NCBI RefSeq assembly: GCF_026342015.1
Contig: NZ_JAPENL010000001.1
Location: 1,736,001 to 1,800,000 of the forward strand
Source: Micromonospora lupini
Lineage (GTDB): Bacteria; Actinomycetota; Actinomycetes; Mycobacteriales; Micromonosporaceae
Length of the DNA stretch: 64,000 nt
Reading direction: 5' to 3'
Shown here: piece after piece, positions 782 through 18,934 of the stretch
Layout of the letters: every line of letters begins with the position of its first letter
How positions within the stretch are numbered: the stretch's first letter is position 1
Program-made: the position numbers and the translations under genes
Notes under the pieces: model-generated
What the model was told of the DNA's origin: nothing
Database searches by the model: none
Seen by the model: only the letters and a program-made list of their open reading frames with translations

Positions 782-1873
782 TCAGTGCCGTGTCGCGCCG
801 GGAAGACGGCGGCGGGCGCGCATGAGGCCGAGGGCGAGGCCCATCCCCGCGCGCGCCACCGGCAACCGCCCCGCCATCCGCAGGATCGTCGCGAGTGTCC
901 ACAGTCGGGTCTCGGCGACGTGCGCCGGCGCGCCGTGCACGTCGTCGTACTCGAGGACCCGTAGATCGCGCACGTGGTCGCGCAGCAGCGCCAGTTCGGA
1001 GCCGGGGATGATCTCGTCTCGGAGACACGACACGTAGGCGATCGGGACGCGGAGCCCGGCCAGGATCTCGGTGGGCAGCGCCCACTCCTCCAGGGGCGTA
1101 CCGCTGTCCGTGAGCTTCGTTCCGGTCAGTCGGCTCAGGGTGTCGACGGTGATCCGTGGCACGCGCGGCCACCAGACCGGGTCCAGGAAGAACTCCCGCG
1201 CCGGGGCGCCGACGGTGACCACCCCGCGGATGCGCGCGTCCTCGGAGGCGCAGCGCAGGGCGAGATGCCCGCTGAAGCTGAGCGCCATGAGGATCGTGGT
1301 GGCGGTGTCCGCGCGGTCGCCGAGGGAATCCAGCAACGCGCTGAGAAATCCCGCGGACTCCGGCGTGTACCGCATGGTGTTCTCACCGACGCCGGGCAGC
1401 TCGGTGACGACGACTGCCATCCCGATGCGACCGGCGCCGGCGAGGACGGGCGCCCACTGTTCCTTCACGCTGACGATGCCCCCTGTCACGACCAGCAGGG
1501 GGCGCGGATCGGTGGCGGAGAGGCCGGCGGCCCAGGCGCGTACGCGACAGCCGTCGACAGTCACCTCCAGGGGCTCGATGTCGTCGCGGCCACGGCGCCA
1601 GGCGTCGAAACTCCGCACGCAGCCCTCCTGGGCCTGCGCCCGGGCCGGCCCGTCGACGTAGGGGAAGCGTGCCATGGCGTACCGGGCGCTGGCGCCCAGC
1701 AGGTCGCCGCGGTTCCGCGCCTCGCTCGCCGCCGCCGACCACTGGCACGCCCATGATCCGGGGGCGCCCTCCTCGTCGGACGTGATCCCGGCCAGCACCG
1801 CCTCGTAGTCGGCGATGCCCTGGCCGCGGGCGTGCAGCCGGGCGAACTGCCGCAGCTCGGCCAGGTCCCTCAC
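782..1873 (-). CDS. Alpha/beta hydrolase, AbyA5-like tetronate eliminase
   Basis: This 363-residue protein is an FrsA-like alpha/beta hydrolase with a nucleophile elbow reading LSFSG (Ser in place of the usual first Gly of GxSxG) and a late acidic and His region (DDVHGAPAH). In tetronate pathways such as abyssomicin and agglomerin, an enzyme of this size directly follows the E2-like acyltransferase. It eliminates acetate from the acetylated tetronate to give the exocyclic methylene. Order and size match that role here; the function is inferred from context. The GTG start at 1873 overlaps the upstream stop (GTGA), indicating translational coupling. Confidence 0.85.
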   Translation of the reverse strand: MRDLAELRQFARLHARGQGIADYEAVLAGITSDEEGAPGSWACQWSAAASEARNRGDLLGASARYAMARFPYVDGPARAQAQEGCVRSFDAWRRGRDDIEPLEVTVDGCRVRAWAAGLSATDPRPLLVVTGGIVSVKEQWAPVLAGAGRIGMAVVVTELPGVGENTMRYTPESAGFLSALLDSLGDRADTATTILMALSFSGHLALRCASEDARIRGVVTVGAPAREFFLDPVWWPRVPRITVDTLSRLTGTKLTDSGTPLEEWALPTEILAGLRVPIAYVSCLRDEIIPGSELALLRDHVRDLRVLEYDDVHGAPAHVAETRLWTLATILRMAGRLPVARAGMGLALGLMRARRRLPGATRH

Positions 1874-2634
1874 GCGAACCCCTCCAAGGCGTCCTTGATG
1901 TCGGCGAGGACGTCGGCGGCCTCGGCACCGTCGATCACCCGGTGGTCGAAGGCCAGGCTGAGCCGCATCGAGGGCGCCACGGTGACCGCACCGTCGCGGG
2001 CCACAGGCCTGTCGACGATGCGGCCGACGCCCAACGTGATCGTCGTGCCGCCCACGGAGTAGAAACCGTCCACCGGCCGGTGCCCGAGCGAGGTGACCGA
2101 GAAGCTGCCGAGCAACTCCTCCCGCCGTACGGCGGAGCGTGTCACCACCCGGTAGGCCAGTCGGCCGAGCAGCGGGGGCAGGCGGTGCAGCAGTCGTACG
2201 CCCCGGAATTCGTCGTGCTCGGCCGGGTCGACGGCCTTGATGGCGTCGATCCGATCCTGCACCTCGTCGAGGCCGGCGGTGTCCAGGCCCGGCACGAGGG
2301 CGCTCAGCACGATGCGCTCGCCGGCGAGGGTGGAGTCGATGGCGAGCTTCCCGGTGACTGTGGCGTACCTCGTGACACGAGGTCGACCGCGCCCGCTGAT
2401 GGCCGCGTTGGCGTCGGGGTGCTTGGCCAGCACGGCGCCCCCGGCGAGCAGCACGTACGAGACGAGCGAGTAGCGGCGGTCGTCGGCTTTGGCGGCTGCC
2501 CGGTGCCGAAGCACCGCGGTCATGTCCACCTCGGTGTCCAGGAAGACGGCGCCGAAGGGCCGGATGTACTCCAGGAAGTAGAGGGTGTGCCGTCGCTGTG
2601 CGGCGAGGGCGGAGGTGCCGTCGCCGCCCATCAC
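1870..2634 (-). CDS. 2-oxoacid dehydrogenase E2-like acyltransferase, AbyA4-like
   Basis: A 254-residue stand-alone E2 catalytic domain with the signature FDHRVIDG near the C terminus; its His and Asp are catalytic in the CAT/E2 fold. There is no lipoyl or subunit-binding domain, so it is not part of a dehydrogenase complex. In tetronate clusters such free-standing E2-like enzymes acetylate the primary hydroxyl of the tetronate before elimination. It lies between the ACP and the hydrolase, as in abyssomicin-type cassettes. GTG at 2634 overlaps the ACP stop (GTGA); ATG at 2631 is an equally possible start. Confidence 0.88.
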   Translation of the reverse strand: MMGGDGTSALAAQRRHTLYFLEYIRPFGAVFLDTEVDMTAVLRHRAAAKADDRRYSLVSYVLLAGGAVLAKHPDANAAISGRGRPRVTRYATVTGKLAIDSTLAGERIVLSALVPGLDTAGLDEVQDRIDAIKAVDPAEHDEFRGVRLLHRLPPLLGRLAYRVVTRSAVRREELLGSFSVTSLGHRPVDGFYSVGGTTITLGVGRIVDRPVARDGAVTVAPSMRLSLAFDHRVIDGAEAADVLADIKDALEGFA

Positions 2635-2852
2635 GCCACCGACGCCACGTAGAGCTGTTCGAGGTTTGTGGCCTCGAGCAGGTGCGGAAGGGACAGCTGC
2701 CGGCCGGATGCGCTCTCCAGGGTCGTCAGCAGGCCGAGCAGGTGCATCGAGTCCCAGCCGGGCAGTTCGTCGAAGTGCCGGCCGATGTCGGCCGGTGTCA
2801 CCTCGAGGCCCAGCTCGTCTCCCACCAGGTCAACGAACTCTTCGATGGTCAC
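2631..2852 (-). CDS. Stand-alone acyl carrier protein (glyceryl carrier)
   Basis: A 73-residue carrier protein with the phosphopantetheine attachment motif DSMHLL (Ser near residue 35) and a four-helix ACP pattern. In tetronate biosynthesis a discrete ACP of this kind carries the glyceryl unit made by the FkbH-like enzyme and presents it to the KAS III-like enzyme for offloading of the polyketide. The GTG start at 2852 has a GAAGGGG ribosome site five to six bases upstream, and only two bases separate it from the KAS III stop. The overlap with the next gene points to coupled expression of the whole cassette. Confidence 0.93.
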   Translation of the reverse strand: MTIEEFVDLVGDELGLEVTPADIGRHFDELPGWDSMHLLGLLTTLESASGRQLSLPHLLEATNLEQLYVASVA

Positions 2853-2854
2853 GG

Positions 2855-3904
2855 CTACCCCTTCGAGTAAGCGACTTCCAGAGCCAGTCCGGCCTTGATC
2901 CACTTGCTCGACTCGACTGCCACCAGTACCGAGCGCGACCCCGGAGCCAGCTCGTCGAGTCCCTGTTCGAGCTGGAGGAACGGCAGCGCGTTGCCGTTGT
3001 TGCCGGTCTGGGCGACACAACTGACCTCTCGGGTGGCCGGAGCGAGGCCCATCTCCTTGACGATGGTCTGGGTCATCCGGCCGGACAGCTGGGGTGGGAA
3101 GACGACGTCCAGCTCGTCCTTCGCCCAGCCCGTACGGTCCAGCAGCTCGTCCAGGATCTCGACGGCGAGGACGGGCACTCCGAGTTCGATGGCCTTGTAG
3201 TCCTCGAAGGCGCCGGGGCGGTCGGCGCCCCGGTCGGCCAGTCCGAACCATTCCACGGTCTGCCCGGGCGGTCGGCCCAGCCCGGTGAACCGGACGAACA
3301 GGTCGCGTACCACCACCTGCTTGCCCGGGCCCGGCTCGGCGCTGAGCACCGCGGCGCCCGCGCCGTCGCCGAACAGCAGCGCGTTGATCTGTTCGCCGGG
3401 GCTGCGGTCGCCGAACTCCACGCTGAGGTCGAAGTGCTTGGCGCAGACGTCGCCGCCGAGCACGAGCACGGTATGGTGCCGGCCGCTCGCGATGAGCTGC
3501 CGCGCGACGTCCAGTGCCTGGAGTGCGCCTGTGCAGCCGGACTGCATCTGGTAGGTCGGCACGTCGTTGATGCCGAGCCGGTCGGCGATCAGGTTGACGG
3601 TCGCGGGCATGAGCTGGTCGGGCGTCGCGGTGCCGAGCACGACCACGTCGACGTCCTGGGCCGTGATCCCGGCCCGGGACAGGGCGGCGTGCGCCGCGGT
3701 CTCACCCAGGTCGGCGAGGGAGAACCGGACCTCGGCGGTGTCGAGGTCGACGGCGAGATACCGGCTGCTGGTACCGACGAACATCGCCACCCACTGTTCC
3801 CACAGCCGGTTCTGACCGAAGCGCCGCGCCAGCATGGCGTTGTCGATCCGTTCGCCGGGCAGCGCGGATCCGACCGAGCGCAGGTAGACGTCGGGGGCGC
3901 TCAT
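2855..3904 (-). CDS. KAS III-like tetronate-forming ketosynthase, AbyA1-like
   Basis: A 349-residue FabH-fold protein. The nucleophilic Cys lies in QSGCTGA (residue 124) and a GDGAGA segment is present. Homologues in tetronate clusters join glyceryl-ACP to the completed polyketide and help close the tetronate ring. The segment that reads PHQAN in FabH reads FPPQLSG here (residues 269-275), so the usual catalytic His is replaced by Pro; the late Gly-Asn (301-302) is kept. This suggests chemistry other than normal decarboxylative condensation. It overlaps the FAD gene upstream by four bases (ATGA). Confidence 0.9.
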   Translation of the reverse strand: MSAPDVYLRSVGSALPGERIDNAMLARRFGQNRLWEQWVAMFVGTSSRYLAVDLDTAEVRFSLADLGETAAHAALSRAGITAQDVDVVVLGTATPDQLMPATVNLIADRLGINDVPTYQMQSGCTGALQALDVARQLIASGRHHTVLVLGGDVCAKHFDLSVEFGDRSPGEQINALLFGDGAGAAVLSAEPGPGKQVVVRDLFVRFTGLGRPPGQTVEWFGLADRGADRPGAFEDYKAIELGVPVLAVEILDELLDRTGWAKDELDVVFPPQLSGRMTQTIVKEMGLAPATREVSCVAQTGNNGNALPFLQLEQGLDELAPGSRSVLVAVESSKWIKAGLALEVAYSKG

Positions 3905-5430
3905 CGGCCCGCCTCCGCCGCTGTGGTGTCGTCGCCGCCGGGCGCACCGAGCCAGGTGGTCAGGGCCAGTTCGAGTCCCGCCGCGTCGGTGCCGGTGCGA
4001 TCGGCCCAGGCGACCACCCCGTCCGGTCGGACCAGCAGCGCCGCCGCGTCCAACTCGGTTGACGGCTCCGCGGTGACGACGTCGAGGCGGCCGGCCCAGC
4101 CGGTGAGATCGGGCTGTCGCAGGGTCCCGCCGGAGGCGTCGACGAGCACGCCCCGGCCATCGTGCAGGGTCTGGGTCAGCGCGACCGCGCCACCGCTGGT
4201 GGCCACCTCGACCGCCGGCACGGGCCGGCCGAGCAGGGGGTGCGCGCTGGCCGGCTTGGACCGCCGCCCGGGATAGCTGATCGGGTAGCGCACCTCGGTG
4301 ATGGTGCGGACGAGATGGTCGTTGACGTCCTCGAAGGCGACAAGCTCACCGAACATGTCGCGCAGGGGCCCGATGGTCTCCGGCGGGTACTGCAGTGCCA
4401 ACTGGGCATCGGTGCTCATCCGGACGCGGTCGCCGACCGGGTGCCGCTCGGCGTGGTAGGTGTCGAGCAGACCCGGTGGCGCCCAGCCGTTGATCGCCCC
4501 GGCCAGCTTCCAGCCCAGGTTCGCGGCGTCGTGCAGGCTGGTGCTGGTGCCGTGGCCGGCGCCGAAGTAGTGCACGTGCGCGGCGTCACCGACGAGGAAG
4601 ACCCGCCCCCGACGGTACGAGGTGACGAGCTGCGTCAGACCGGAGTAGCGGTAGATCCAGTCGGGTTGCCCGACGGTCAGGTCCTTGCCTGTGACTCGCG
4701 CGATGGACGCCCGCAGTTCCTCGACCGTCTCGGGTGCCTCGGGATCGTCGGGCAGCCTGCCGAACTCCATGGTCATGAGCCGCACCCGTGTCGGGTGCAC
4801 GGGGTGCGGCACGACAGCGAAGATTCCCGTCGGGTAGTTCGCGGACTCCCACTCGCCGTCCGCCTCGTCGAAGTCGGCGAGGAGTCCGTACCAGGAGATG
4901 CTGCCCTGCCGGGTCGCGAAACCGGCGAGAGCGCGTACGGCGCTGTTCTCACCGTCGCAGCCGACCAGGTAGGCGGCCGTCAGGTCGTACTCGCCGTCCG
5001 GGCCGCTCACGCGGACGGCCACGTCGTCGGCATCGTCGTCCGGCCCTCGTTCGACGGCCGTCAGCGTGTGGCCTCGACGGATGTCGGCGCCCAGCTCGCG
5101 CGCTCGTTCCTCGAGCACCCGGACGGTGCTCGCCTGCGGGATCATCAGTGAGTGCTCGGTCGCGAGGAGCTTGCTCAGGTCCAACCAGAAATTGCCAAAG
5201 TGGATCATCGGCCAGACCGGCGGGTCCTCCTTGCGCAGCGGATCCATCAGCCCACGCAGGTCCAGCAGGTCGGCCGCCCGCGCGTGCAGCATGTGGGCCC
5301 GGAGATTCTCGCCCGTCGACCGGTCCGGGCTGCGCTCCAGCACCGTCACCTCCACGCCGGCCAGGCGCAGCTCGGCGGCGAGGAAGAGACCGGACGGCCC
5401 GGCACCGACGACGAGCACCGGCGCGGACAT
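3901..5430 (-). CDS. FAD-dependent monooxygenase-like protein, candidate PyrE3-type cyclase
   Basis: A 509-residue class A flavoprotein with GAGPSG in the N-terminal Rossmann segment, a CDG motif near residue 155, a GDAAH motif near residue 285 and a thioredoxin-like C-terminal domain. After GDAAH the loop reads AGHGTSTSLHD, not the usual GGxGxNxGxxD of hydroxylases, so the isoalloxazine site may be altered. In pyrroindomycin a related FAD protein, PyrE3, forms the decalin by [4+2] cycloaddition without redox turnover. Position between the AbyU-like cyclase and the tetronate genes makes a similar role likely but unproven. ATG at 5430 shares one base with the upstream stop (TGATG). Confidence 0.8.
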   Translation of the reverse strand: MSAPVLVVGAGPSGLFLAAELRLAGVEVTVLERSPDRSTGENLRAHMLHARAADLLDLRGLMDPLRKEDPPVWPMIHFGNFWLDLSKLLATEHSLMIPQASTVRVLEERARELGADIRRGHTLTAVERGPDDDADDVAVRVSGPDGEYDLTAAYLVGCDGENSAVRALAGFATRQGSISWYGLLADFDEADGEWESANYPTGIFAVVPHPVHPTRVRLMTMEFGRLPDDPEAPETVEELRASIARVTGKDLTVGQPDWIYRYSGLTQLVTSYRRGRVFLVGDAAHVHYFGAGHGTSTSLHDAANLGWKLAGAINGWAPPGLLDTYHAERHPVGDRVRMSTDAQLALQYPPETIGPLRDMFGELVAFEDVNDHLVRTITEVRYPISYPGRRSKPASAHPLLGRPVPAVEVATSGGAVALTQTLHDGRGVLVDASGGTLRQPDLTGWAGRLDVVTAEPSTELDAAALLVRPDGVVAWADRTGTDAAGLELALTTWLGAPGGDDTTAAEAGR

Positions 5431-6005
5431 CAGGAGGACGCTTCCTGCGCGAGCGCCCCGGCGCCCGGACCGCAGAGCGTGATCCGGGAGTCGACCGGGA
5501 TCTGCGGGTCGCCGATCGTGGTGACCCGCCAGGTCCAGACGCCCGCGAGGCCTCGGTACTTCCCGCTGGTGCCGTGGATCGGGATGCTCACCCACTGGAG
5601 GTTGGCCACCCGGTAGCGGTCCATGACGCCCTCGGCGACCAGGTTGCCGTCGGGCAGTTGGAACTGCTCCGTGACGTACTGCATGACGTGGCCCTCTGCC
5701 GTCCTGGACACCATGTGGTTGATCCCGGCGCCGTGCCCCACCAGGGTGGCGCCGTCGGCGGTGTAGATGTCGTCGAAGTAGGCGATCATGAGGCCGACCG
5801 GCACGTCCCGGGGATCGAAGTCGCGGTCCCCGTAGTAGTGGATGGTGCGCTCGACGTACTGCTGCGTGGCGCAGCCCTGCGTGGCCGGGGCCGGCGGGCG
5901 CTCGGCCTGCGCGGGGAGCGCGGAGGCACCGAGCACCAGTGCCGAGGCGGCCGACAGAACGGCGGCCGCGGAACGCAGGATCCGGCGTGATTCGAGCAGA
6001 CGCAT
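5430..6005 (-). CDS. AbyU-like spirotetronate cyclase with N-terminal signal peptide
   Basis: A 191-residue protein. Residues 70-165 match the pattern of AbyU, the abyssomicin Diels-Alderase beta-barrel: FDD..Y.ADGA..G..AG, then LPDGNLVAEGVMDRY, then W...P..GTSGKYRGLAG..TWR. The first 34 residues (ESRRILRS, a long Ala/Leu stretch, then AQA) look like a Sec or Tat export signal, which I do not expect on a cytoplasmic pathway enzyme. The start is well supported by AGGGAG six bases upstream. Cys45 and Cys178 flank the barrel and could form a disulfide if exported. Alternatively it is a secreted allene-oxide-cyclase-barrel protein with another role. Confidence 0.8.
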   Translation of the reverse strand: MRLLESRRILRSAAAVLSAASALVLGASALPAQAERPPAPATQGCATQQYVERTIHYYGDRDFDPRDVPVGLMIAYFDDIYTADGATLVGHGAGINHMVSRTAEGHVMQYVTEQFQLPDGNLVAEGVMDRYRVANLQWVSIPIHGTSGKYRGLAGVWTWRVTTIGDPQIPVDSRITLCGPGAGALAQEASS

Positions 6006-6106: not shown

Positions 6107-6406
6107 CTACCTCTTCTCGCCGGAGACCCGGAAGCTCCCCAGGAAGCCGGCCTTCACCGTCCCGGACATCAGGTCGTCGTCCACAGTGGTGCGAAAAGTC
6201 AGGGTGACCGGCATCTTGCTCAACTTCGCCTTCCACTGCAGGTCCGTGGCCTCGGCGCGGCCTTCGAAGATCTCGGTGCTCATTCCGCCGGCCTCGTTGA
6301 CCATCGTGCCGGTCAGCACCCCGTCGACGTTCGACAGGTTGAGCATGGTCTCCTGTTTCCCCATCGGACTGTCAATGATCAATTGCCAGATTCCGTCGAC
6401 GCTCAT
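6107..6406 (-). CDS. Small beta-barrel (calycin-like) protein of unknown function
   Basis: This 99-residue protein is predicted to be almost all beta strands, with alternating strand and turn units (DGVLTGTM, DDLMSGTVKAGFLGSF). It resembles a widespread uncharacterised family built around GTVKxGxxGSFxxxG, likely an avidin- or calycin-like barrel. It has no signal peptide or obvious catalytic motif. ATG at 6406 is chosen because TGGAG lies six bases upstream; ATG at 6418 is possible. It is the first gene of the leftward tetronate operon and lies 101 bases before the AbyU-like gene. A ligand-binding, chaperone or second cyclase role is possible, but none can be assigned. Confidence 0.75.
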   Translation of the reverse strand: MSVDGIWQLIIDSPMGKQETMLNLSNVDGVLTGTMVNEAGGMSTEIFEGRAEATDLQWKAKLSKMPVTLTFRTTVDDDLMSGTVKAGFLGSFRVSGEKR

Positions 6407-6515
6407 GCCGAACTCCATTTCTGCGGACCGGGGGATATTCGCCGCGCACCCAGACCGGGCGGGCGCCTTAACGGTAGGATCACCGGCGACGCCCAGCAAT
6501 GGCCGTGGCGGGGAA

Positions 6516-17224: not shown

Positions 17225-17273
17225 GGTCGGACTCCTCGGGAGACGACTGTGGTCCGTTCATCGTGGGCAACCT

Positions 17274-17293
17274 GCCTAAAGCGCTGCTTAGGC
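17274..17293. promoter_or_regulatory. Copy 3 of shared CTAAAGC palindrome
   Basis: GCCTAAAGCGCTGCTTAGGC has six-base arms (GCCTAA/TTAGGC) and matches the sites at 6084 and 6571. It lies between the divergent P450 (50 bases) and exporter (82 bases) starts, where one regulator could control both. Confidence 0.6.
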
Positions 17294-17340
17294 CGTCGAG
17301 CGCCTGCTTGTTTCGGCCCCGTCGCTGGGTTAGCCTATAA

Positions 17341-17356
17341 CATGTTAGTCGCTAAC
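17341..17356. promoter_or_regulatory. Exporter operator CATGTTAGTCGCTAAC
   Basis: The core GTTAGTCGCTAAC (17344-17356) is a perfect 13-base inverted repeat located 18 bases before the exporter ATG. TATAAC at 17336-17341 may be the -10 element. Nearly the same sequence overlies the SARP promoter at 8689-8704. Confidence 0.65.
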
Positions 17357-17374
17357 TCGAAGGGACCGCACACG

Positions 17375-18934
17375 ATGAGCACGCGCGTTGATCGCCGCTG
17401 GTTGATGCTTATTGCCGTCTGCCTCGCCGTACTGGTGCTGAGTCTCGACTTCACGGTCCTGAACGTGGCCCTCCCCAGCATCTCGAGCTCCCTGGGCGCC
17501 GGCACCTCCGAACTCCAGTGGATCGTCGACGCCTACTCGCTGGCGATCGCCGGCGCGATGCTGCCCTCCGGTGCGATAGCCGACCGCATCGGCCGCAAGA
17601 AGGTCATGCTGGCGGGGCTCGGCCTCTTCTTCGTCGCCTCGTTCGCCGCCGCGCTGTCGGAGACGGCGGGCCAGTTGATCGCGGCCCGCGCCGTGATGGG
17701 TGTCGGATCCGCGATCATCCTGCCGCTGACCCCGGCGCTCGTCATCACGACCTTCTCCGGCCGTGAGCGCACCCGGGCCATGGCCGTGTTCACGGCAGCG
17801 GTCGGCGCCGGGATGCCATTCGGGCCGATCGTCGGCGGTGCCCTGCTCGAACGCTACTCGTGGAGTTCGGTCTTCTGGATCAACGTTCCGATCCTCGCGA
17901 TCGCGTTCGTGGCCGGCCTGCTGCTGATCGACGAGTCGCGCAGCGAGACGCAGCGCCCACTGGACGTCGTGGGCAGCGTCCTGGCCGTCCTCTCGACCGT
18001 CGCCCTGGTCTACGGCGTCATCCGCGGCCCCGAGTCGGGCTGGTCGGACGGCCTGACCATCGCCCTGCTGGTCGGCGCGGTGATCGCGATCGCGCTGTTC
18101 GTGGCCTGGGAACGGCGCGTCGCCCACCCGCTGATGGACCTCCGGCTGTTCCGCAAGCCGCAGTTCACCTGGAACACCGTCGCCATCATGATCGTCGCCT
18201 TCGCGCTCGCCGGTGTGATCTTCGTGGTCCCGCTCTACCTGCAGGCGGTGCGGGGCTTCGACTCGCTCGGCACCGGCCTGCGGATCATCCCGATGATGGC
18301 CGGCCTCCTGGTGTCCGGCGCCCTGGCCACAAGCCTGGACCGCAGGTTCGGCGGGAAGGTCATCGTGATCACCGGCCTGGTGGTGATGGGTGCCGGGCTG
18401 CTCCTGCTCACCCGGGTCGACGACACCAGCGGGTACGAGTGGCTGGCGATCGGCCTGGCCGGCTGCGGGTTCGGCGTCGGCGCCGTGATGGCCACCTCGC
18501 TGGAGGCGGCGGTCGGCTCGGTCGGTGACGACGCCGCGGGCAGCGGCTCGGCGGTGGTCAACACGCTGCGCCAGGTCGGTAGCGCCGTGGCGGTGGCCGC
18601 CATGGGCAGCGTGCTGTCGGGCGTCTACCAGAAGGATCTCGATCCGGCGCTCGGCGGTCTCCCGTCCGCCGCGGCCGATGCGGCGAAGGAGTCGGTGTTC
18701 GGCGCGGCCGCCGTCGCGGAGAAGCTCGGACCGCCCGGTTCCGCGCTGTTGCGCGCCGCCCAACTGGCGTACGTCGACGGAATGTCGATGGTCATGTGGT
18801 GCTGCTTCGGCCTCGCCGTGGTCGGTGCCGCGCTCTGCCTGGCCTTCCTGCCGAAACGCGAATCGTTCGCATCGTTGACGCCGCACGAGGACGACGAATC
18901 CCCGGTGAGCACCACCGCGCAGAGCAAAGGCTAG
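17375..18934 (+). CDS. DHA2-family MFS exporter
   Basis: A 519-residue drug:H+ antiporter with about 14 membrane segments. Motif LDFTVLNVALPSI in the first segment and GAIADRIGRKK in the first cytoplasmic loop are typical of DHA2 exporters. It probably exports the polyketide and gives self-resistance. ATG at 17375 follows AAGGGA; an upstream in-frame ATG at 17342 lies within the operator and is unlikely. The TetR gene begins 17 bases downstream on the same strand, as in many exporter-repressor pairs. Confidence 0.92.
   Translation: MSTRVDRRWLMLIAVCLAVLVLSLDFTVLNVALPSISSSLGAGTSELQWIVDAYSLAIAGAMLPSGAIADRIGRKKVMLAGLGLFFVASFAAALSETAGQLIAARAVMGVGSAIILPLTPALVITTFSGRERTRAMAVFTAAVGAGMPFGPIVGGALLERYSWSSVFWINVPILAIAFVAGLLLIDESRSETQRPLDVVGSVLAVLSTVALVYGVIRGPESGWSDGLTIALLVGAVIAIALFVAWERRVAHPLMDLRLFRKPQFTWNTVAIMIVAFALAGVIFVVPLYLQAVRGFDSLGTGLRIIPMMAGLLVSGALATSLDRRFGGKVIVITGLVVMGAGLLLLTRVDDTSGYEWLAIGLAGCGFGVGAVMATSLEAAVGSVGDDAAGSGSAVVNTLRQVGSAVAVAAMGSVLSGVYQKDLDPALGGLPSAAADAAKESVFGAAAVAEKLGPPGSALLRAAQLAYVDGMSMVMWCCFGLAVVGAALCLAFLPKRESFASLTPHEDDESPVSTTAQSKG

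Follow-up and report, generated by a model that had tools for sequence, protein, structure and literature searches.

Does the final ring closure of a tetronate antibiotic have to take place inside the cell? This question is raised by a gene in a 64,000-nucleotide stretch of the Micromonospora lupini genome (assembly GCF_026342015.1, contig NZ_JAPENL010000001.1, positions 1,736,001–1,800,000; genome G000 in our set), which we call the window and cite by its own positions. The gene lies on the minus strand at 5430..6005, coordinates that the initial annotation had given correctly, is read from 6005 to 5430, and encodes a 191-amino acid AbyU/Cyc15-type cyclase of the AOC_like family, as recognized by Pfam, by phmmer against sequences of the Protein Data Bank (PDB) and by Foldseek. 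Here, we provide evidence that this protein carries a predicted signal peptide together with a cysteine pair that may close its barrel. We lean, somewhat more than we doubt, towards the reading that it is an exported, disulfide-closed [4+2] cyclase acting after export on a tetronate with an exocyclic methylene.

The cyclase starts with the ATG at position 6005, and its frame cannot begin earlier because an in-frame TGA lies 15 nt upstream; the Shine-Dalgarno sequence AGGGAG stands between this stop and the ATG. The next candidate start, a GTG at codon 24, falls within the hydrophobic stretch; it would leave the protein without a leader, has no Shine-Dalgarno sequence by eye and was rejected. 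The predicted signal peptide comprises residues 1–34 (5904..6005, minus strand) and reads MRLLESRRILR, then SAAAVLSAASALVLGASALP, then AQA, after which cleavage is predicted, with Glu35 following and a short Pro/Ala linker leading to the barrel. Its net charge of +3 over residues 1–11 is followed by 23 uncharged residues. By our own heuristic score of n-region charge, hydrophobic core and −3/−1 site (not SignalP), the leader thus has the basic n-region, uncharged hydrophobic core, AxA site and supported start of a Sec substrate of signal peptidase I. This score, and the threshold of 21.5 used on the tree below (including a one-point Shine-Dalgarno bonus), were chosen after outputs were known. 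With 25.1 the cyclase ranks 12th among 96 open reading frames (ORFs) from 204 kb of this genome, scored with alternative starts, and 55 of the 96 score as leaderless; the value was attained by 22 of 20,000 sequences drawn at random from the residue composition of three cluster enzymes and by 8 of 20,000 shuffles of the cyclase's own first 50 residues. The upstream stop, the ribosome-binding site and the score with its nulls thus bear out the 34-residue leader ending in AQA that the initial annotation had read from the best start. Its label 'Sec/Tat-like' is fair in that a twin arginine is present (SRRILR); the remainder of the Tat motif is poorly matched. A lipoprotein signal (signal peptidase II) was considered and rejected: a lipobox has its cysteine directly after the hydrophobic core, and here there is no lipobox, Cys45 sitting 11 residues past the cleavage site after Thr-Gln-Gly. 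We conclude that the cyclase is very likely exported by a Sec-type, possibly Tat-type, route.

The mature part resembles known [4+2] cyclases. AOC_like (PF18678) matches residues 61–168 (E 1e-18; 67.6 bits against a curated cut-off of 25.9) and was the only family reported by a Pfam scan at E up to 1, in which the Dirigent domain (PF03018) was not found. Among PDB sequences, phmmer ranked Cyc15b (9qp8, 1.8e-19) and Cyc15 (8of7, 1.8e-18) before AbnU (7dvi, 3.2e-12), AbyU (7e-11), LucK (9uuv, 1e-9), PloI4 (7e-8), AbmU (3e-6) and PyrI4 (2e-4). The AlphaFold2 (AF2) model, computed from an alignment of two sequences, is of low confidence (mean predicted local distance difference test, pLDDT, 61.6; predicted template modelling score, pTM, 0.56; residues 1–36 at pLDDT <50). 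Its strands, among them beta-1 at 45–58 and beta-8 at 171–178, and its top Foldseek matches, Cyc15 and AbyU, are those of an eight-stranded antiparallel barrel. Foldseek ranks 1–41 are held by Cyc15, AbyU, Cyc15b, LucK, AbnU, AbmU, PloI4, PyrI4 and Tsn15, so that both AbyU and PyrI4, which the initial annotation had named for structural comparison, are among them; dirigent chains appear only from rank 42 downward. The AbyU-pattern barrel described there is thus recovered by family, sequence and fold searches alike. In the alignment the aromatic pocket pair that many members of the family share is kept (AbyU Trp124/Phe41 correspond to Trp159/Tyr76), and Glu52 is retained, matched by eye to Cyc15 Glu17. 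The position of AbyU Tyr76, which hydrogen-bonds the lactone (PMC11268479), is Val111, as likewise in the Cyc15 group. From these resemblances we infer [4+2] cycloaddition by the exported protein.

Exactly two cysteines are present, and the AF2 secondary structure places Cys45 (5871..5873, minus strand) as the first residue of beta-1 and Cys178 (5472..5474, minus strand) as the last of beta-8. Both are invariant, together with the cleavage-site alanine, in an alignment of seven exported sequences that includes the window's. The disulfide between them that the initial annotation had proposed is plausible because the two cysteines stand where beta-1 begins and beta-8 ends, as in the plant dirigent protein AtDIR6, and because both are kept in 7/7 exported sequences. 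AtDIR6 is an AOC-type barrel with a known beta-1/beta-8 disulfide (Cys40–Cys186), which bacterial dirigent-like proteins are said to lack (PMC9344732), and its barrel steers a stereoselective coupling. Unlike the window protein, it belongs to another Pfam family and acts in the radical coupling of lignans, and the structural similarity is only remote.

The gene stands in an operon with a tetronate cassette, as had been claimed. Its stop codon overlaps the start of a flavin adenine dinucleotide (FAD) enzyme gene in TGATG, which couples cyclase and flavoprotein translationally, and the genes that follow overlap by 4 nt each (starts as read here). The order on the minus strand is small protein, cyclase, FAD enzyme, ketoacyl synthase III (KASIII), acyl carrier protein (ACP), acyltransferase and hydrolase, with an FkbH gene divergent.

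We then asked how widely the leader and the cysteine pair occur together. AOC_like genes were found in 14/160 genomes of the genus set, 36/394 of the class set, 10/35 of one further family and, in the genus of genome G301 (presumably Streptomyces), in 19/392 by a two-sequence profile and 104/392 by Pfam; a search with the window protein gave matches in 14/354 genomes of the family. Leader and cysteines were read in 71 ORF rows, of which a few repeat a gene because loci overlap, and in 16 more (L142–L157), the numerous weaker matches that came without a locus being left out; the best-scoring start was taken for each relative, which favours finding leaders. Eleven genes combine the leader with both cysteines: the window gene, four Tmn8-like genes (L081–L084), two each in genomes G127 and G691, L085 (G921) and L040 (G481). 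Polyketide synthase (PKS) genes occur in the wider neighbourhoods of the exported genes of the window, G127, G691, G790, G843, G921 and G481 (7/7, by eye from ORF starts, with Pfam for G691 only); the neighbourhoods in G919 and G793 were covered for only ~1.5 kb. The Pfam scan of the 392 genomes gave 30 loci, of which L128–L141 had already been placed by the profile search, and the 16 loci L142–L157 held no new lineage with leader and pair, L145 being the L085 gene. A search for relatives with a degenerate pattern returned none in the first contig scan, only L090 of Streptomyces geranii in the second and none on plasmids. The sequence of the protein and these relatives with leader and cysteine pair near PKS genes, tmn8 included, strongly support the export that the initial annotation had suspected.

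For the tree we used 60 rows, namely the 71 minus duplicates and rows below 85 bits, plus three partial PDB sequences hand-labelled leaderless. Cyc15 (8OF7) and Cyc15b (9QP8), which are the closest solved structures in sequence and rank among the best matches in fold, form one clade with the window protein, a leaderless paralogue from the same genome described below and L090 (100/98), within which the window protein and this paralogue pair at 100/97. Cyc15 makes a spirotetronate in vitro (PMC10946715). Unlike the window protein, Cyc15 and Cyc15b show neither a leader nor flanking cysteines in the portions available, which exclude their ends, and their homologue L090, seen whole, has neither; they also keep the barrel-head Arg where the window protein has Trp. 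AbyU (5DYV, abyssomicin) shares the fold and the aromatic pair, and AbyU-like genes in genomes G040 and G155 adjoin a tetronate cassette, but AbyU is leaderless and its Glu19–Arg122 bridge is absent from the window protein. The exported lineages of tmn8 and of G127/G691 branch away from the window protein. The rows divide into 10 with leader and pair, 14 with a leader only, 8 with the pair only and 28 with neither (L040 was scored as lacking its second cysteine through the alignment, although its sequence ends LCG), and the fewest changes on the tree are three for the leader and six for the pair. At the threshold of 21.5 no row of the window protein's 23-row clade other than the window protein itself counts as leadered. 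Below it, the rows scoring above zero among the 71 were L034 (21.4), L044 (19.8), L025 (18.2) and L033 (18.1); L033 and L034 share the 23-row clade, so that at a slightly lower threshold the window protein would not be the sole leadered row. The best cleavage site of L034, AAT preceding an Arg, does not conform to AxA. In the window lineage the leader and the two cysteines seem to have been acquired anew and jointly; the tree alone cannot separate gain from loss, several branches being long (the window's 0.74), and a test of the association between leader and pair had just 2–3 independent pairs and no power. L033 and L034 themselves are AbnU-like, with an N-terminal hydrophobic segment without AxA site, and are possible membrane anchors; a second AOC_like frame adjoins L034. 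L027 (open frame 0–1872) and L071 carry an AbyU-like domain as the last part of a long open frame; the upstream part of L027 resembles an Rhs/YD-repeat core by eye, either a fusion or a read-through frame being possible, and such frames may be why databases use names like 'Rhs family protein'.

The clusters that hold other exported cyclases were compared with the window cassette by tblastn, with 60 kb fetched for each of G127 and G691. These two share the acyltransferase (56 and 53% identity), the hydrolase (53 and 52%), the FAD enzyme (41 and 42%) and the small protein (49 and 47%), and gave no tblastn match to KASIII, FkbH or ACP in their 60 kb. The G691 FAD enzyme scores highest against ChlE3 (463 bits) and PyrE3 (398 bits), and a nonribosomal peptide synthetase (NRPS) module adjoins a PKS module there (Pfam); a tetramate product is therefore possible. 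Genome G790 matches the window in KASIII (58%), FkbH (53%), hydrolase (53%), acyltransferase (63%) and ACP (49%), and its FAD enzyme matches 6UI5 with 1052 bits, which is Tmn9 (PMC12380092). G127, G691 and G790 contain FAD-fold and methylene-forming genes, and the Pfam scan of their genomes found no AOC_like gene besides the exported ones. In the controls G040 and G155 the cassette is complete, the AbyU-like cyclases are leaderless, and the 11 and 20 kb fetched gave no FAD match. In G921 (L093) and G481 (L095), too, exported AOC_like genes with the cysteine pair lie near type I PKS genes; in the stretches fetched, G921 matches the window cassette only in a thioesterase and, weakly, in the FAD enzyme, and G481 in nothing besides the cyclase.

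One exported lineage can be tied to published genetics. Deletion of tmn8 abolishes tetronomycin, knockout primers that yield 971 bp from the wild type, with 573 bp deleted in the mutant, have been published, and Tsn15, a Tmn8 homologue, catalyses the final step of tetronasin (PMC7489565). In the 3.4-kb locus L081 (G793) the two knockout primers (0 and 1 mismatches) bracket a segment of 971 bp (1439–2409). The inner deletion primers are chimeric; their annealing parts, whose boundary we set, each match with 0 mismatches and lie exactly 573 bp apart. By this primer geometry the gene is either tmn8 itself or a copy almost identical to it. The outer-arm primers have no match in L081, their sites falling outside it, and match G790 with 0 and 2 mismatches; the four inner and knockout primers match L082, L083 and L084 with 0–4 mismatches. 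Tmn8 is a protein of the same design, with a predicted leader and the cysteine pair. The 190-amino acid reading in agreement with the 573 bp begins at a GTG that no Shine-Dalgarno sequence precedes (L081/L084), probably 22 codons too early: the GTG 22 codons later follows AAGGGA and gives a 168-amino acid protein with a clean predicted signal peptide. Like the window cyclase, Tmn8 has an adjacent FAD-type cyclase and a tetronate cassette. It differs in being VstJ-like, in its low identity of 22% across the mature region (for the copy in G790) and in its separate branch in the tree, and its chemistry, by analogy with Tsn15, would be a rearrangement/tetrahydropyran step rather than a spiro-closure.

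On these grounds we favour the exported, disulfide-closed cyclase: its leader has a fixed start, its closest characterised relatives are [4+2] cyclases, the aromatic pair is kept and the gene is part of the tetronate operon with its overlapping genes; in G127, G691 and G790 every AOC_like gene found by the Pfam scan is an exported one, and FAD-fold and methylene-forming genes are present; and one exported lineage is tmn8, needed for tetronomycin, with Tsn15 as a final-step enzyme and NapU as a precedent. The signal peptide would send the barrel across the membrane, where the leader would be cleaved after AQA and the beta-1/beta-8 disulfide would hold the barrel together in the oxidizing exterior. 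The tetronate with its exocyclic methylene would leave the cell, with a transporter of the major facilitator superfamily (MFS) encoded in the cluster (17249..18934, plus strand; Pfam MFS_1 1.8e-58 on 17312–18934) as candidate exporter, and the barrel would perform the late pericyclic spiro-closure outside the membrane. The active antibiotic would then arise at a distance from its target, protecting the producer by location in the manner of NapU, a secreted enzyme that completes an exported antibiotic precursor in naphthyridinomycin biosynthesis (PMC9854587); unlike the cyclase, NapU is an oxidoreductase of other chemistry. This would be the extracytoplasmic final cyclization that the initial annotation had suggested as one possibility.

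Several observations weigh against this reading. The barrel-head Glu-Arg salt bridge is lost, the Arg (AbyU Arg122) being Trp157, and likewise in the leaderless paralogue. The cysteine pair, tried as proof of export, was rejected as such: 8/60 tree rows have it without a leader, PyrI4 among them (residues 1–10 unseen), which qualifies that part of the initial proposal. Leaderless PyrI4-like genes (L153, L157) lie beside an FAD-fold gene, and an FAD partner therefore does not require export. Tsn15, the functional counterpart of Tmn8, shows neither leader nor beta-1 cysteine in residues 48–199, its residues 1–47 and C-terminal end being unseen. Finally, the leaderless paralogue stands at the opposite edge of this cluster, outside the view of the initial annotation, and could do the final cyclization inside the cell. 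This sister (G000:C1:1672609-1673019; L001 1459-1869, minus strand) lies 63 kb to the left of the window across PKS genes and is the only other AOC_like gene of the genome, so that one spirotetronate-type cluster holds two such cyclases. It encodes 136 amino acids from MLELRMIEK behind the Shine-Dalgarno sequence GGAG. By the leader score it has no leader, also in a longer reading, and it has neither flanking cysteine, its sole cysteine being residue 80. Its 47% identity to the window cyclase is the best match across the 354 family genomes searched. Of 26 mapped AbyU positions, hand-picked, 16 are identical in both copies; the literature singles out residues 41, 76, 122 and 124, which are alike in the two, and 126, which is not (Val/Leu). 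On the side of the favoured reading, the exported copy has a leader and a cysteine at either end of the barrel, which the sister lacks, as does the surrounding Cyc15 group in the parts seen.

The sister gives substance to a division of labour, in which it would be the cytoplasmic spirocyclase and the exported copy, neofunctionalised, would bind, shield or remodel the product outside for self-protection or carriage. Being leaderless, scoring slightly better than the exported copy against Cyc15b (1.9e-21), Cyc15 (7.5e-20) and AbyU (1.4e-14) and sitting at the edge of the same PKS cluster, it fits this role. Yet it is the exported copy and not the sister that sits in the tetronate operon, G127, G691 and G790 have exported AOC_like genes only (Pfam scan), and tmn8 is essential for production (PMC7489565). 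We regard this division as a serious but rather unlikely alternative to an exported final cyclase.

An uncleaved leader that serves a cytoplasmic protein as an N-terminal lid helix appears improbable. The idea bases on PyrI4 (pyrroindomycin), which has a functional N-terminal lid (PMC9814550), an Ala-rich helix before its beta-1 cysteine and a C-terminal cysteine as well, and to which phmmer aligns the window protein from residue 21 on. PyrI4 thus shares barrel and cysteines with the window protein, but it has the lid in place of a signal peptide and falls into a different clade, the tree placing the window protein with Cyc15. The N termini of PyrI4 (from residue 11) and of the PyrI4-like L017 are acidic and score as leaderless, whereas in the window protein the leader begins with basic residues, runs on through 23 uncharged ones to an AxA site, and is modelled at pLDDT <50 (from the two-sequence alignment only). 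PyrI4, L017, L060, L019 and L086 have beta-1 and C-terminal cysteines with an Ala-rich N-terminal stretch that lacks a basic start. The PyrI4-type lid might itself be a decayed signal peptide.

That a generic secreted AOC_like or dirigent-like protein without pathway role merely landed in the cluster is hardly credible: AOC_like proteins that are secreted but lack the cysteine pair occur often (13/60 tree rows, 14 by automatic label, which missed the second cysteine of L040, and 12/16 further loci), but on the tree the window protein falls in with the Cyc15 group (100/98), a long way from these, its gene is translationally coupled to the flavoprotein gene, and 0/12 such loci match the window cassette or a PKS probe within ~1.5 kb.

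The remaining genes around the cyclase indicate its probable substrate. Next in the operon, the FAD-fold enzyme (3901..5430, minus strand) matches ChlE3 (9srp, 1.5e-96) and Tmn9 (6ui5, 4.9e-95) in a search of the PDB, with monooxygenases, PgaE among them (2.3e-91), not far below and PyrE3 lower (3.3e-75), and is probably a ChlE3-like decalin [4+2] cyclase. It is followed on the same strand by a KASIII-like, putatively tetronate-forming enzyme (2855..3904; Pfam ACP_syn_III 1.5e-15), an ACP (2631..2858; PP-binding E 7e-4, slightly below cut-off), an acyltransferase of the 2-oxoacid dehydrogenase acyltransferase fold (1870..2634; Pfam 2.8e-20), which we take to be AbyA4-type, and an alpha/beta hydrolase (782..1873; Pfam FrsA-like 2.4e-7), presumably the AbyA5-type enzyme of exocyclic methylene formation, as assumed from abyssomicin and agglomerin work. 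The FkbH-type glyceryl loading enzyme is divergent (6609..8519, plus strand; NCBIfam FkbH 5.5e-87). A small protein without Pfam family (6107..6499, minus strand) has copies near the exported cyclases of G127 and G691 (tblastn 49% and 47%); with its motif GxWQLxIDSPMGKQE it could be product-binding or accessory. Left of the operon lie six PKS ORFs with ten ketosynthase motifs and one extra acyltransferase at the start, and the cluster product is probably a class II spirotetronate. No sugar genes were recognized by eye in the ORF listing, no dedicated search for them having been made.

In the open PMC papers, supplements being outside the search, we found no description of an exported cyclase of this fold. 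The main text of the tmn8-deletion paper (PMC7489565) uses 'signal peptide' 0 times, again with supplements outside the search; export terms were not found in the main text of the cyclase papers searched for them; and in a paper that also mentions spirotetronates (PMC7256010) 'signal peptide' occurs, in the text seen, only among genome statistics. The fold itself is well known among cyclases; an exported example would, as far as this search shows, be new. Tentatively, and with less confidence than we have in the exported cyclase itself, we propose a dispersed class of exported, disulfide-closed pericyclases that comprises this spirotetronate enzyme, Tmn8 and the enzymes of ChlE3-like NRPS-PKS clusters. 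They would place the last pericyclic step outside the membrane as self-protection, the design having been gained anew here within a cytoplasmic clade and the PyrI4 lid perhaps being a decayed leader. The pair of leadered and leaderless copies within one cluster offers an internal control for where the pericyclic step happens. If export is true, the substrate to be exported, the logic of self-resistance and the redox conditions for work in vitro would all change, and the mature, oxidized Tmn8 would be the proper form for assays; some antibiotics may be finished outside the cell.

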